Assembly (NCBI GenBank): GCA_019637635.1
Contig: JAHBVI010000009.1
Span: 1 to 64,000 of the forward strand
Direction of reading: 5' to 3'
DNA length: 64,000 nucleotides
Origin: Anaerolineae bacterium
GTDB taxonomy: Bacteria; Chloroflexota; Anaerolineae; Promineifilales; Promineifilaceae
The position numbers and the translations under genes were made by a program. Shown here in pieces: positions 6,294 through 62,429 of the stretch. The notes below the pieces were generated by a model. That model was not told the DNA's origin. It searched no databases and saw only the letters and a program-made list of their open reading frames with translations. Position 1 is the first letter of the stretch. Every line of letters begins with the position of its first letter.

Positions 6294-6330
6294 GGTGTGG
6301 GCAGTTTAGCACAGAGAGGCGGGAATCGGT

Positions 6331-6389
6331 AATCGGTGAATGGTGAACGGTAATCGAGAGATTGGAAATTGGAGATTAGAGATTGGGAG
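6331..6389. repeat. Hybrid of family G and family B repeat words
   Basis: ATCGGTAATCGGTGAATGG-type words (family G) run directly into GAGATTGGAAATTGGAGATT words (family B). Only one arm of each palindrome is present. It lies upstream of nurA. Confidence 0.6.
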
Positions 6390-15938: not shown

Positions 15939-16009
15939 GTAGGGGCGAGGCAGTTGGGTAAAAATTTGTCTTGCCAGACCAACTTGCACCCAACTGCCTC
16001 GCCCCTACG
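15939..16009. repeat. Family E palindrome in the nifJ leader
   Basis: GTAGGGGCGAGGCAGTTGGG and its complement enclose a 30-base middle. It fills almost all of the predicted nifJ 5' leader. Copies are at 58152-58221 and 62462-62527. Confidence 0.8.
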
Positions 16010-57633: not shown

Positions 57634-57849
57634 GATGGTACCTGTACTGCCTTTTGGGAACTTAACCGCAAAGAACGCGAAGGACGCAAAGTTTTATCCT
57701 TATCTGTGTGTTCTCTGCATCCTTTGCGGTGAATCATTACCCTTTGTCTTTCATTGTTACATTTTTGCACTTTCCCCCCGCTCCGGTACAATGTATCTTA
57801 TCAATGTATACCATCCTGGCAATTTGAAAAGTGAATAATGCAAACGGCC

Positions 57850-58103
57850 GTGCGGGAGAGTATCTGAATCCGTAATCGGTAATCAGTAATCGGTAAACGG
57901 TGAACCGATTACCGATCACCGATTACCGATTACCGATCACCGAAGGGGCAACCGGCGAGCGATCTATCGCCCACCGCGAATCTCTCAGGTAAAAGGACCG
58001 GACGGCAGGGTGTATCTGAAAAATGCGTAACAGAACGCATACCGAAGGGGCAAACGGCAGGCAAAAGTTTACCTGCTGCCAATCTCTCAGGTTAATGACA
58101 GAG
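57850..58103 (+). promoter_or_regulatory. Tandem glycine riboswitch upstream of gcvH-gcvP
   Basis: Two aptamers in series. Aptamer 1: GGGAGAG (57854-57860), CCGAAGGGGCAA (57940-57951), AATCTCTCAGG (57979-57989), AAAAGGACCGG. Aptamer 2: P2 ATGCGT/ACGCAT (58023-58040), CCGAAGGGGCAA (58042-58053), AATCTCTCAGG (58081-58091). These are the hallmark conserved blocks of the gcvT-motif RNA. The P2 stem of aptamer 1 is greatly lengthened by a family G palindrome. A terminator follows directly, so glycine probably switches transcription on by antitermination. Confidence 0.93.
57864..57946. repeat. Family G palindrome inside aptamer 1 of the riboswitch
   Basis: GTAATCGGTAATCAGTAATC words and their complement ACCGATTACCGATCACCGAT. 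It sits exactly where the variable P2 hairpin belongs and forms a stem of some 30 base pairs. The word also occurs at 6331-6354. Confidence 0.8.
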
Positions 58104-58148
58104 GACGCTGGCAAAACGCCGTTTTGCCATGCGTCCTTTTTTATTTTC
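58103..58148 (+). terminator. Riboswitch-controlled terminator
   Basis: GGACGC..GCAAAAC and GTTTTGC..GCGTCC form a hairpin, followed by TTTTTTATTTT. It starts immediately after aptamer 2 and so can compete with its 3' strand. Confidence 0.85.
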
Positions 58149-58151
58149 TAC

Positions 58152-58221
58152 CGTAGGGGCGAGGCAGATGGGTATAAATTTGTCCGACAAGACAACGCAT
58201 CCCCCATCTGCCTCGCCCGTA
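58152..58221. repeat. Family E palindrome
   Basis: CGTAGGGGCGAGGCAGATGG and CCATCTGCCTCGCCCGTACC. It lies between the riboswitch terminator and the gcvH ribosome-binding site. Confidence 0.8.
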
Positions 58222-58239
58222 CCCACAAAGGAGTAGATC

Positions 58240-58629
58240 ATGTCCAAAATCCCTGCAAATTACCGTTTTTCCGATGATGATGAATGGGTGCGCGTGGAAG
58301 GCGACGAAGTGGTGATTGGCATCACCGACCACGCCCAGGATTCCCTGTCTGACATCGTGTACCTGCAACTGCCCGATGTTGGCGACAGCTTTGGCGCGGG
58401 CGACGCCTTCGGCGTGGTGGAATCGGTGAAAGCCGCCGCCGACCTGTTGATGCCCATTGCCGGGGAAGTCACGGCCGTAAACACCCCCCTCATTGACACC
58501 CCCGAACTCGTCAACAGCGACCCCTACGGCGACGCCTGGATGATCCGCGTCCGCCCGGACAACATGGCCGACGCGGATGCCCTGATGGACGCAGCGGCGT
58601 ATGAGAAGTTTTTGGCAGAAAGAGAGTAA
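58240..58629 (+). CDS. gcvH: Glycine cleavage system H protein
   Basis: 129 residues. Start KIPANYRFSDDDEWVRVEGD. The lipoyl-bearing Lys64 is in FGVVESVKAAADLLMPIAG. The C-terminal NSDPYGDAWMIRVRP is the usual end block. It shuttles the aminomethyl group between the P, T and L proteins. AAAGGAG precedes the ATG by seven bases. First gene under the glycine riboswitch; gcvP follows after a family A palindrome. No gcvT is present in this operon. Confidence 0.95.
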   Translation: MSKIPANYRFSDDDEWVRVEGDEVVIGITDHAQDSLSDIVYLQLPDVGDSFGAGDAFGVVESVKAAADLLMPIAGEVTAVNTPLIDTPELVNSDPYGDAWMIRVRPDNMADADALMDAAAYEKFLAERE

Positions 58630-58636
58630 GAAACAG

Positions 58637-58709
58637 GAAGTAAGCAGTGGGCAGTAAGCAGTGAGCAGTTTGCTTTTACTGCTCACTGCTCACCGCTTAC
58701 TGCTCACTT
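58637..58709. repeat. Family A palindrome between gcvH and gcvP
   Basis: TAAGCAGTGGGCAGTAAGCA and TGCTCACTGCTCACCGCTTA. It may slow or stabilise the mRNA between the two genes. Confidence 0.8.
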
Positions 58710-58728: not shown

Positions 58729-61659
58729 ATGACAACCCACGAAATCATTGAAGCCGGTGAGAACGGACATACGGCCGTGCCCAATCACGACATGCTCCGT
58801 CCCGCTGACCGGTTTGTGAAACGGCATCTTGGCCCGCGCAGCAAAGAGGTAACGGAAATGCTGCACACGTTGGGCCTCAACTCGCTGGATGAACTGGTAG
58901 ACCAGGCCGTGCCCGCCAACATCCGCATGAAGGGAGAGTTGAAGCTGGAACGGCCGCGCAGTGAAACGGCCGTGCTGGACGAACTGCGCGCCCTGGCTAA
59001 CCAAAACCAGGTGTACCGCTCCTTCATCGGCATGGGCTACAGCGACACCATCACCCCGCCCGTCATCCAGCGCAACATCCTGGAAAACCCCGGCTGGTAT
59101 ACCCAATACACCCCCTACCAGCCCGAAATCGCCCAGGGCCGACTGGAAGCGTTGATCAACTTCCAGACCATGATCACCGACCTGACCGGCATGGAGATCG
59201 CCAACGCCTCCCTGCTAGACGAAGGCACCGCCGCCGCCGAAGCCATGACCCTCTGCCAGCGCGCCATGCCCCGCAGCAGCAAAGCCAACACCTTTTTCGT
59301 CTCTGAACTGTGCCACCCGCAAACCATTGCCGTCGTGCAGACCCGCGCCGAGCCACTGGGTTACCAGGTCATCGTTGGCGACCACACCAGCTACGACTTT
59401 AGCCAGCCCACCTTTGGCGTGCTGCTGCAATACCCCGCCACCACCGGGGACATCCTCGACTATGAACCGTTCATCCAGAAAGCGCACGCGCACGGTGCAT
59501 TAGCCGTCGTCGCTGCCGATTTGCTGGCGCTGGTACTGCTGCGGCCGCCCGGCGAAATGGGCGCGGATGTGGTGGTGGGCAATTCGCAGCGATTTGGTGT
59601 GCCCATGGGCTACGGCGGCCCCCACGCCGCCTACATGGCCACTAAAGACGAACACAAACGCATCATGCCCGGCCGGCTGATTGGTGTTTCCATTGACGCC
59701 CAGGGCAAACCCGGCTACCGGCTGGCGCTGCAAACCCGCGAACAACACATCCGCCGCGAAAAAGCGACCAGCAACATTTGCACAGCGCAGGTGTTATTGG
59801 CCGTCATGGCCTCCATGTACGCCGTCTATCACGGCCCGGAAGGGCTAAAGCGTATTGCCCGGCGGGTGCGGCTGATCACCCAGGTGGTCGCCGCCGGATT
59901 GCGCGAATTGGGCTATGAACTGAACGGCGAGCCGGTGTTCGACACGCTGAAAGTGAGCGGCGGCCCGCTGGCCCAGGCGCAAATTCAGGCGCGCGCTCTG
60001 GCGCGGCGGGTCAACCTGCGTACCTTTGCCGATGGCACGGTGGGCGTTTCGTTGGACGAAGCCACCCGCCGCCACGATTTGGAAACGGTGCTGGAGATTT
60101 TTGGCGGGCAGCCGGGGCAGTTTGACCTGGAAGCGATGGCCGACGCCGTCTCGCTGGACTACGATGCACTCCACCAGCGCACCAGCCCGTTTCTCACCCA
60201 CCCCACCTTCAACAGCTACTTCTCGGAAACGGAGATGCTGCGCTACATTCGCCGCCTGGAAAGCCGGGACCTCTCCCTGACCCACTCCATGATCCCGCTC
60301 GGCTCCTGCACCATGAAGCTGAATGCTACGGCCGAAATGCTGCCCATCACCTTGCCCGAATTCGGCCATCTGCACCCCTTTGCGCCGCTGGAACAAACCC
60401 AGGGCTACCAGGAATTATTCCGCCGCCTGGAAAACTGGCTGATGGAGATCACCGGCTTTGACGCTTTCTCCTTGCAGCCCAACTCCGGCGCGCAGGGGGA
60501 ATACACCGGGCTGCTGGTCATCCGCGCTTACCACCACGCCAAAGGGGATGCGCACCGCAACGTCTGCCTGATTCCCAGTTCGGCGCACGGCACCAACCCG
60601 GCCAGCGCCGCTCTGGCGGGCATGGACGTGGTGGTGGTGCAGTGTGACGATGCCGGCAACATTGACGTGGCTGACCTGCGCGCCAAAGCGGAAAAACACC
60701 AGGAAAGGCTGGCGGCGCTCATGGTCACATACCCATCCACACATGGCGTTTTTGAAGCGGCCATCGCCGAAATCTGCCAGATTGTGCATGAGTTTGGCGG
60801 GCAGGTATATCTGGATGGGGCGAACATGAATGCCCAGGTAGGGCTGACCCGTCCGGGCGACTTTGGCGCGGATGTGTGTCATTTGAATTTACATAAGACG
60901 TTTTGCATTCCACACGGCGGCGGCGGGCCGGGCATGGGGCCAATTGGCGTCAAGGCGCACATCGCCCCCTTCCTGCCGGGGCATCCGGTGGTTGCCGGGG
61001 TGGGCGGGGCGCAGGCCATTGGGCCGGTGTCGTCGGCGCCCTGGGGCAGCGCCAGCATCCTACCCATTTCGTATGCCTACATTGCCATGATGGGCAGCTG
61101 GGGGCTGACGGTGGCGACGAAGGTGGCGATTTTGAACGCCAATTACATCGCCGAACGGCTGGAGCCGCATTATCCAGTGTTGTATCGCGGGGCCAACGGC
61201 CGTGTCGCCCATGAATGTATTGTGGATTTGCGCCACTTTAAGGAGCTGGTGCCGGTGGATGATGTGGCCAAGCGGCTGATGGACTTTGGCTTCCACGCCC
61301 CCACCATGTCCTTCCCCGTGCCCGGCACGCTGATGATTGAGCCGACGGAGAGTGAATCCAAAGCGGAGCTAGACCGCTTTTGCGAGGCGATGATCCAGAT
61401 TCGTGCCGAAATTCGGGCGGTGGAAAATGGGGAGATCACCCACGAGGACAGCCCGCTGGCGCACGCGCCGCACACGGCCGAGGTGATTATGAGCGACAGT
61501 TGGAATCGGCCGTATTCCCGTGAACAGGCCGCATACCCGGCAACCTGGGTGCGCGAGCGCAAATTCTGGCCTTACGTAGGGCGTATTGACAACGTCTACG
61601 GCGACCGCAACCTGTTCTGTATCTGCCCGCCGGTAGAGGCCTACGCGGAAGTTTCGTAG
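58729..61659 (+). CDS. gcvP: Glycine dehydrogenase (decarboxylating), fused P protein
   Basis: 976 residues, the single-chain form. The N-terminal half starts [20 protein letters not shown] with [20 protein letters not shown]. The C-terminal half has [20 protein letters not shown], and the PLP-binding Lys is near residue 722 in [19 protein letters not shown]. It decarboxylates glycine and passes the aminomethyl group to GcvH. The ATG has no strong ribosome-binding site (CTGGAGAAAACA is 9 bases upstream and adequate). Only about three ACGGCCGT octamers occur in 2.9 kb, fewer than in most neighbours. Confidence 0.96.
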
Positions 61660-61660
61660 C

Positions 61661-61722
61661 AGTGCCAGGCACAGGGCAAAACATTTTGGCCAGCCTGATA
61701 CCTGATGCCCCGTGCCTGGCAC
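61661..61722. repeat. Family D palindrome after gcvP
   Basis: AGTGCCAGGCACAGGG and CCCCGTGCCTGGCACT. It starts directly after the gcvP stop (TAG) and probably helps end the transcript. Confidence 0.8.
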
Positions 61723-61762
61723 TCCCAGCGCGTGTTATAATCACGGCCGTGAGGTGATGACG

Positions 61763-62110
61763 ATGATTCTGGAAATTGAAACCAAACCTGTGCCGCTGCG
61801 AGTAAATGCGGATGGCGTTATTCTGGTGGGTAAAACCCGCGTCCCCATAGATACAGTGGTCTATTGCTTCTGGAATGGTGATACGGCCGAAGAGATTGTA
61901 GAGCAATTTGACGCCTTAAAGTTGTCCGAGGTGTATGCTGTTATTGCCTATTATCTAGATCACCAGGAAGAAATTGACGCTTATATCAAACAACGCAAAC
62001 AAGAAGCGGAGATCATACGCCAGGAAAATGAAAGACGGTTCCCCAGCCATGGATTGCGTGAAAAATTGTTAACCCACCTGAAAAATGTCGAAGCTGAAGT
62101 TTCTGGCTGA
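61763..62110 (+). CDS. DUF433 protein, probable antitoxin
   Basis: 115 residues from the ATG at 61763, chosen because GAGG lies eight bases upstream. The DUF433 core is VNADGVILVGKTRVPIDTVV with WNGDTAEEIVEQFDALKLSE and VYAVIAYYLDHQEEID, a winged-helix-like DNA-binding fold. The C-terminal 35 residues are basic and helical and probably neutralise the toxin. It overlaps the next gene by 26 bases, the usual layout of DUF433/DUF5615 pairs. Confidence 0.85.
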   Translation: MILEIETKPVPLRVNADGVILVGKTRVPIDTVVYCFWNGDTAEEIVEQFDALKLSEVYAVIAYYLDHQEEIDAYIKQRKQEAEIIRQENERRFPSHGLREKLLTHLKNVEAEVSG

Positions 62111-62429
62111 CGAGAATTTCAACGGCCGTATCCTGCGCGGTCTGCTACGGCGCAACCCTGATCTGGACGTTCTGCGTGTCCAGGATACGGAAGTGGCCGA
62201 GGCAGATGATCCGGTTATGCTGGAATGGGCGGCTCAAAGCGGGCGGATTCTATTAACCCATGACGTAAACACCGTGACGAAGTATGTGTATGAACGGATA
62301 GCCGAAGGGAAACCTATGCCCGGCGTTTTTGAAATCAAACGTTCCATGCCCATCGGTTTGGCGATTGAGCAATTGCTGATTGTGATAGTAGCCAGTTTTG
62401 AAGGGGAATGGGAGAACCAGATCCAATAA
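62085..62429 (+). CDS. DUF5615 PIN-like toxin
   Basis: 114 residues. PIN-like start KFLADENFNGRILRGLLRR with the metal-binding Asp-Glu, then VLRVQDTEVAEADDPVMLEW and a second acidic site in GRILLTHDVNTVTKYVYERI. This is the Mut7-C/DUF5615 fold, expected to be an RNase. Frame and overlap fit a type II toxin-antitoxin pair with the DUF433 gene. The active-site residues look intact. Confidence 0.85.
   Translation: MSKLKFLADENFNGRILRGLLRRNPDLDVLRVQDTEVAEADDPVMLEWAAQSGRILLTHDVNTVTKYVYERIAEGKPMPGVFEIKRSMPIGLAIEQLLIVIVASFEGEWENQIQ

Follow-up and report, generated by a model that had tools for sequence, protein, structure and literature searches.

How does a structured leader RNA come to hold a long palindrome of iterated repeat units, and what becomes of its fold? 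The question is raised by a tandem glycine riboswitch (Rfam RF00504) in the genome of an uncultured Chloroflexota bacterium (G000; metagenome-assembled, 7.5 Mb in 299 contigs), with gcvH and then gcvP on its 3' side, which places the riboswitch upstream of glycine metabolism genes. The window, that is, the whole stretch of DNA that was analysed, comprises 64,000 nt, and five further genomes (G001-G005) bring the number of compared genomes of the genus to six. Riboswitches are known to tolerate stable, non-interfering stem-loop insertions, even long ones (Barrick and Breaker 2007, PMC2258182), and the repeat-derived P2 stem described here is a variant of this tolerance. As a representative of the RF00504 class the riboswitch is unremarkable; together with the intrinsic terminator behind it, it probably controls gcvH-gcvP, with P2 of its first aptamer being a tolerated, self-folding insert that stems from a dispersed palindrome. 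What is unusual is that palindromes of different families are exchanged at fixed sites, the riboswitch P2 included.

Architecture of the riboswitch

The features of the locus are collected in Table 1. Aptamer 1 matches RF00504 at 57843-58010 with 48.2 bits (cut-off 32), the alignment placing a 70-nt insert within P2 and leaving the rest of the aptamer untouched, just as the first-pass annotation had located the palindrome in the variable P2 hairpin. The stem of some 30 base pairs proposed there is likewise borne out by the fold predicted for P2 in isolation, in which the 26 pairs of the main stem are joined by five outer pairs to give about 31. The arms of the inverted repeat (57868-57901 and 57904-57937) are 88% complementary, and the fold energy lies far below that of dinucleotide shuffles (z -7.5, with 0 of 300 shuffles as low), as it does across the palindromic P2s compared (z -3.1 to -7.5). 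The claim that the conserved blocks of both aptamers are intact was slightly too strong, holding in full for aptamer 1, because the 5' block of aptamer 2 (TCTGAAAAA) is degenerate and its score falls just under the cut-off of 32 (E 0.0002 in a 551-base search); the orthologues of aptamer 2 in G001, G002 and G004 pass the Rfam gathering score. P2 of aptamer 2 is ordinary and short (58024-58041). The terminator hairpin and its T run, conserved in G001-G004, were missed by a simple terminator scan and were seen in the RNA fold. With the tandem RF00504 riboswitch of the B. subtilis gcvT type the leader thus shares tandem aptamers, a terminator behind them, glycine-cleavage genes downstream and a first aptamer over the cut-off, but it differs in that P2 of aptamer 1 consists of 79 nt of genomic repeat and in the degenerate first block of aptamer 2.

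Table 1. Features of the riboswitch locus in window coordinates
Feature	Position	Strand	Basis
Sigma-70-like promoter candidate, TTTGCA-17-TACAAT	57764..57792	+	conserved in G001-G004
P0 leader strand AUGCA; predicted pairing partner, linker UGUAU (58011-58015)	57838..57842	+	RNA fold
Aptamer 1 P1, 5' strand	57848..57855	+	Rfam alignment
Aptamer 1 conserved block GGGAGAG, intact	57854..57860	+	sequence, Rfam alignment
Aptamer 1 P2, a 79-nt palindrome of iterated AATCGGT units; 26-pair main stem at 57872-57933	57861..57939	+	
Aptamer 1 conserved block CCGAAGGGGCAA, P3 5' side, intact	57940..57951	+	
Aptamer 1 conserved block CTCTCAGG, P3 3' side, intact	57982..57989	+	Rfam alignment
P0 linker strand UGUAU	58011..58015	+	RNA fold
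Aptamer 2, RF00504, 31.3 bits (cut-off 32)	58015..58102	+	Rfam search
Expression platform: hairpin GGACGC...GCGTCC (58103-58136), then T run = intrinsic terminator	58103..58143	+	RNA fold
Second palindrome, GTAGGGGCGAGGC...GCCTCGCCCGTAC, family other than that of P2, between terminator and gcvH	58153..58222	+	inverted repeat, sister comparison
gcvH, glycine cleavage H protein	58240..58629	+	NF002270, TIGR00527
Third palindrome, AGTAAGC family, gcvH-gcvP gap	58646..58708	+	hairpin sample, sister comparison
gcvP, glycine dehydrogenase	58729..61659	+	TIGR00461

In the mechanism proposed here, the variable P2 of aptamer 1 would now be provided by a dispersed palindrome of iterated 7-nt units, and the transcribed insert would form a hairpin of its own, on top of P2, that does not engage P1, P3 or the glycine pocket. 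Because the palindrome is self-complementary, the transcribed insert would fold on itself and could enter an RNA loop at little cost, and since P1, P3 and the pocket would stay free, it would be tolerated by selection. Such an insert is presumably near neutral, and the RNA has probably retained glycine binding. The computed median cost of forming P3 is 5.8 kcal/mol with long P2s versus 5.5 kcal/mol in short-P2 relatives, and genomic palindromes modelled in the P2 position perturb the aptamer fold less than their own shuffles do (5.1 versus 9.1 kcal/mol).

That the palindrome has instead disabled aptamer 1, so that the leader acts, if at all, via aptamer 2 alone, is quite improbable. The size of the insert relative to the Rfam model would fit such a loss, as would an alternative pairing (UAUCUGA-UCAGGUA) which nearest-neighbour folding of the native aptamer 1 prefers over the full consensus fold, the consensus costing 12.1 kcal/mol, no better than with shuffled inserts (11.8 kcal/mol). 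This objection weighs little, however, because the same energy model also disfavours the consensus in a short-P2 version of the aptamer (10.7 kcal/mol). Aptamer 1 moreover scores above aptamer 2, and its core blocks are conserved in six species, a conservation which is meaningful because the first aptamer of the B. subtilis glycine riboswitch is the one that matters most in vivo (PMC5666159); had it been lost here, its core should have relaxed.

The P2 palindrome as a dispersed repeat

The first-pass annotation had assigned the palindrome to a repeat family, and BLAST of the genome with the 75-base P2 core confirms this with at least 85 matches at at least about 40 scored loci, a lower bound, as the scoring covered 40 of 404 first-look candidates. 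P2 itself apart, these relatives are mostly 76-93% identical. Within the window, the 21-base pattern AATCGGTAATCRGTAATCGGT (up to three mismatches) has nine matches where 0.00 are expected, seven of them in the P2 element and the remaining two at 6317-6344. The census of palindromes in G000 rests on a 464 kb sample of the genome, which holds 77 hairpins with arms of at least 18; a mononucleotide-shuffled version of its first three stretches yields none. Most are built of iterated 7-nt units (GAGATTG, CGTAATC/GGTAATC, AGTGAGC, CGTGATG, GTGTCAG), to which an 8-nt type, GTAATTGG, is added. A riboswitch variable insertion is hereby given a traceable origin.

The dispersed relatives bear on the idea that P2 grew in place, by slippage or template switching, from the ACCGA motif of the aptamer, its likeness to dispersed repeats being secondary. 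The final palindrome units do merge into the conserved CACCGAAGG, and at another site the empty sequence of G001, CGTAATTG, is identical with the first unit of the palindrome in G003; yet the number and identity of the relatives, together with the wholesale replacement of families at many other sites that lack such a motif, render growth in place very improbable.

Long direct arrays of AGTGACG/AGTGACA heptamers are found in G001 (C10:19072-19167, C11:20851-20953 and C12:26252-26333); they are possibly precursors or relics of palindromes.

P2 in related genomes

Comparison of the locus with sister genomes, which had been proposed as a check, reveals a long aptamer-1 P2 (63-100 nt) and conserved core blocks in all six genomes of the genus, with a repeat type that varies by genome. 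P2 is of the AATCGGT type in G000, G003 and G004, of the CCGTAAT type in G001 and G002, and of a decayed ACTGAAT type in G005, where partial copies occur elsewhere in the genome. The CCGTAAT family has dozens of copies in G000-G004 and none in G005, and for five of the six P2s the repeat family runs to dozens of copies. Neither a short P2 nor a clean empty site for the P2 element was found in any of the six, so that the original insertion is not seen directly. Across 37 readable relatives, the first-aptamer P2 measures 13-50 nt in 28 and 59-100 nt in nine, namely the six genomes of the genus, G007, G019 and G031. Beyond the genus, the presence of dispersed repeats was confirmed for the aptamer-1 P2 of G019 and for the aptamer-2 P2 of G018, G028 and G031, which means that repeats were captured in P2 on several independent occasions. 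For the P2s of G007 and G020 and the aptamer-2 P2 of G015, a search for repeat copies found none. Long P2s with no likeness to repeats, named at the outset as evidence that would speak against a repeat origin, are accordingly absent from the close relatives and present outside the genus, in G007 and G020.

The retention of a long hairpin in all six genomes despite the change in sequence could mean that P2 is kept for a function, serving for cleavage by RNase III, as a rigid arm or for timing during transcription, with repeats as the supply of stems, and RNase III does cleave transcripts with other palindromic elements, Correia elements among them (review PMC10969869). A function of this kind is nonetheless unlikely, given that in most other genera of the family P2 measures 13-50 nt although the riboswitch otherwise matches, that palindromes are common at tolerant sites generally, and that no P2 sequence is conserved. 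An error in which repeats were collapsed into the riboswitch during assembly is hardly credible: the compared genomes were assembled from metagenomes and are estimated to contain some contamination, but the separate assemblies agree, the P2 of G004 differing from that of G000 at one of 79 bases and the P2 of G003 being related.

P2 identity between G000, G003 and G004 on the one hand and G001 and G002 on the other is 55-57%, with gcvH about 91-92% identical. The P2 of G003 is 80-82% identical to those of G000 and G004 versus 55% to those of G001 and G002, and its P3 region, conversely, is 92-94% identical to G001 and G002 versus 66% to G000 and G004; P2 and the right flank therefore have different histories. 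The left flank of G003 is closest to that of G001 (93%), with G004 at 89%. The swaps at P2 were probably made by insertion or conversion and not by point mutation, and part of the change could be gradual, because a CCGTAAT unit is set apart from an AATCGGT unit by one main position. P2 by itself does not call for several events: one change in the lineage leading to G001 and G002 would be enough if these two are sisters, a point on which the gcvH tree is not decisive. When P2 and the gcvH-gcvP gap, some 700 bases apart, are taken together, all four combinations of families are present (in G000, G001, G002 and G003), so that one of the two sites must have undergone recurrent exchange or recombination.

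The tip of P3 in aptamer 1 (P3b) also occurs as two unlike types with a 9-nt difference in length, one in G000 and G004 and the other in G001-G003.

Exchange of palindromes at orthologous sites

Where the flanks of an intergenic site are conserved between sister genomes, the orthologous positions hold palindromes of unrelated families, one in place of another, or none at all, and the P2 site would act in the same way, its families being replaced over time as the flanks stay. As called by eye, the palindrome 3' of RNase P RNA is of the AGTAAGC family in G000, G002 and G003, of the GAGATTG family in G001 and G004, and AATCGGT-like in G009; site 9624 holds AGTGAGC in G000 and GGTAATC in G002; and the gcvH-gcvP gap holds AGTAAGC in G000 and G001 and CGTAATC in G002, G003 and G004. 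Site 7897 of L094 (C230) is occupied by GAGATTG in G000 and G004, by GTAATTG in G003 and by a further palindrome in G002, G001 having an empty site, and the second palindrome of the riboswitch locus is swapped or absent in sister genomes. Among 44 mapped comparisons of orthologous sites, three sites were empty and 41 occupied. Of the latter, 33 fold with z <= -3, 22 have an identity of 0.55 or less (the yardstick being a median of 0.46 between palindromes of unrelated sites) and 16 combine both; in one of the 41, the P2 of G003, the mapped segment is overlong and the identity value not meaningful. Since 14 of 36 other intergenic segments, used as a control, also fold with z <= -3 in relatives, the 33 of 41 represent an enrichment and not an absolute contrast. 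The family swaps and empty sites lend indirect support to the description of the palindrome as mobile.

A tentative and somewhat doubtful generalisation is that these Chloroflexota possess a pool of interchangeable palindrome cassettes with 7-nt units which are exchanged at fixed chromosomal sites by a templated process, and which repeatedly re-supply the peripheral stems of structured RNAs such as the glycine riboswitch while the core is under selection. No paper describing the exchange of palindrome families at fixed sites was found in the open-access literature, to which the search extended; that one unrelated family takes the place of another at a given site hints at a process of exchange which has gone unrecognised. 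The natural replacement of one stem by different sequences across species also amounts to a natural test of swappable RNA parts, making it directly testable which riboswitch stems can vary freely and how a repeat can be taken up with function preserved.

The palindromes directly 3' of RNase P RNA possibly serve as its terminator or 3' end. RNase P RNA was considered as a second host RNA and rejected, as no palindrome lies inside it in the genus. In the gcvH-gcvP gap of G003 (L080), the CGTAATC palindrome is interrupted by an insert that bears a second palindrome, of the CGTGAAA family, and is bounded by similar TAACGG-like ends, a nested insertion.

Comparison with known repeat systems

Short tandemly repeated (STRR) sequences are heptanucleotide repeats in the RNase P RNA of cyanobacteria, arranged directly and not as palindromes; heptanucleotide units in a structured RNA are common to both systems, RNase P RNA itself being free of such elements here. 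The TAACTGA heptamers of Beggiatoaceae, abundant intergenic direct repeats with one inverted case, share abundance, intergenic position and 7-nt units, but consist of one direct heptamer, described in a text with no link to riboswitches (PMC4679880). Mitochondrial genomes harbour repetitive hairpin-forming elements of diverse structure, located between genes and inside rRNA genes, which have invaded repeatedly and are retained in the transcript (PMC2800124); families of diverse hairpins that also lie inside structured RNA genes are found in both cases, whereas here the genome is bacterial, the units are iterated 7-mers and the host RNA is a riboswitch. The variable insertions of riboswitches (PMC2258182) likewise are long, non-conserved stem-loops, located where they are tolerated and can leave the core undisturbed, but the present insert is traced to dispersed palindromes and differs between sister species.

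REP/REPIN elements with their RAYT transposases resemble the heptamer palindromes in being dispersed extragenic palindromes with an RNA hairpin. Four Y1 (RAYT-like) transposase genes (L186, L187, L188 and L189) adjoin REP-like hairpins, AGTGCCAGGCA, CTCCCGGAGCTT and GGCTAAAGCC, which are not of the heptamer kind, and with these they likely form REP/RAYT pairs separate from the heptamer palindromes. RAYT/Y1 transposases were rejected as the mover of the latter, because the hairpins beside Y1 genes are of other families than the P2 palindrome or are absent. Two palindromes of the window, at 58153-58222 and 15939-16008, start with GTAG (GTAGGGGCGAGGC) and resemble the class of GTAG-tagged REPs (PMC3733652).

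On the 3' side of gcvP, two small overlapping reading frames occupy 61712-62429 of the window. The second (62085-62429) presumably encodes a PIN-like protein, and we take the pair to resemble a toxin-antitoxin module.
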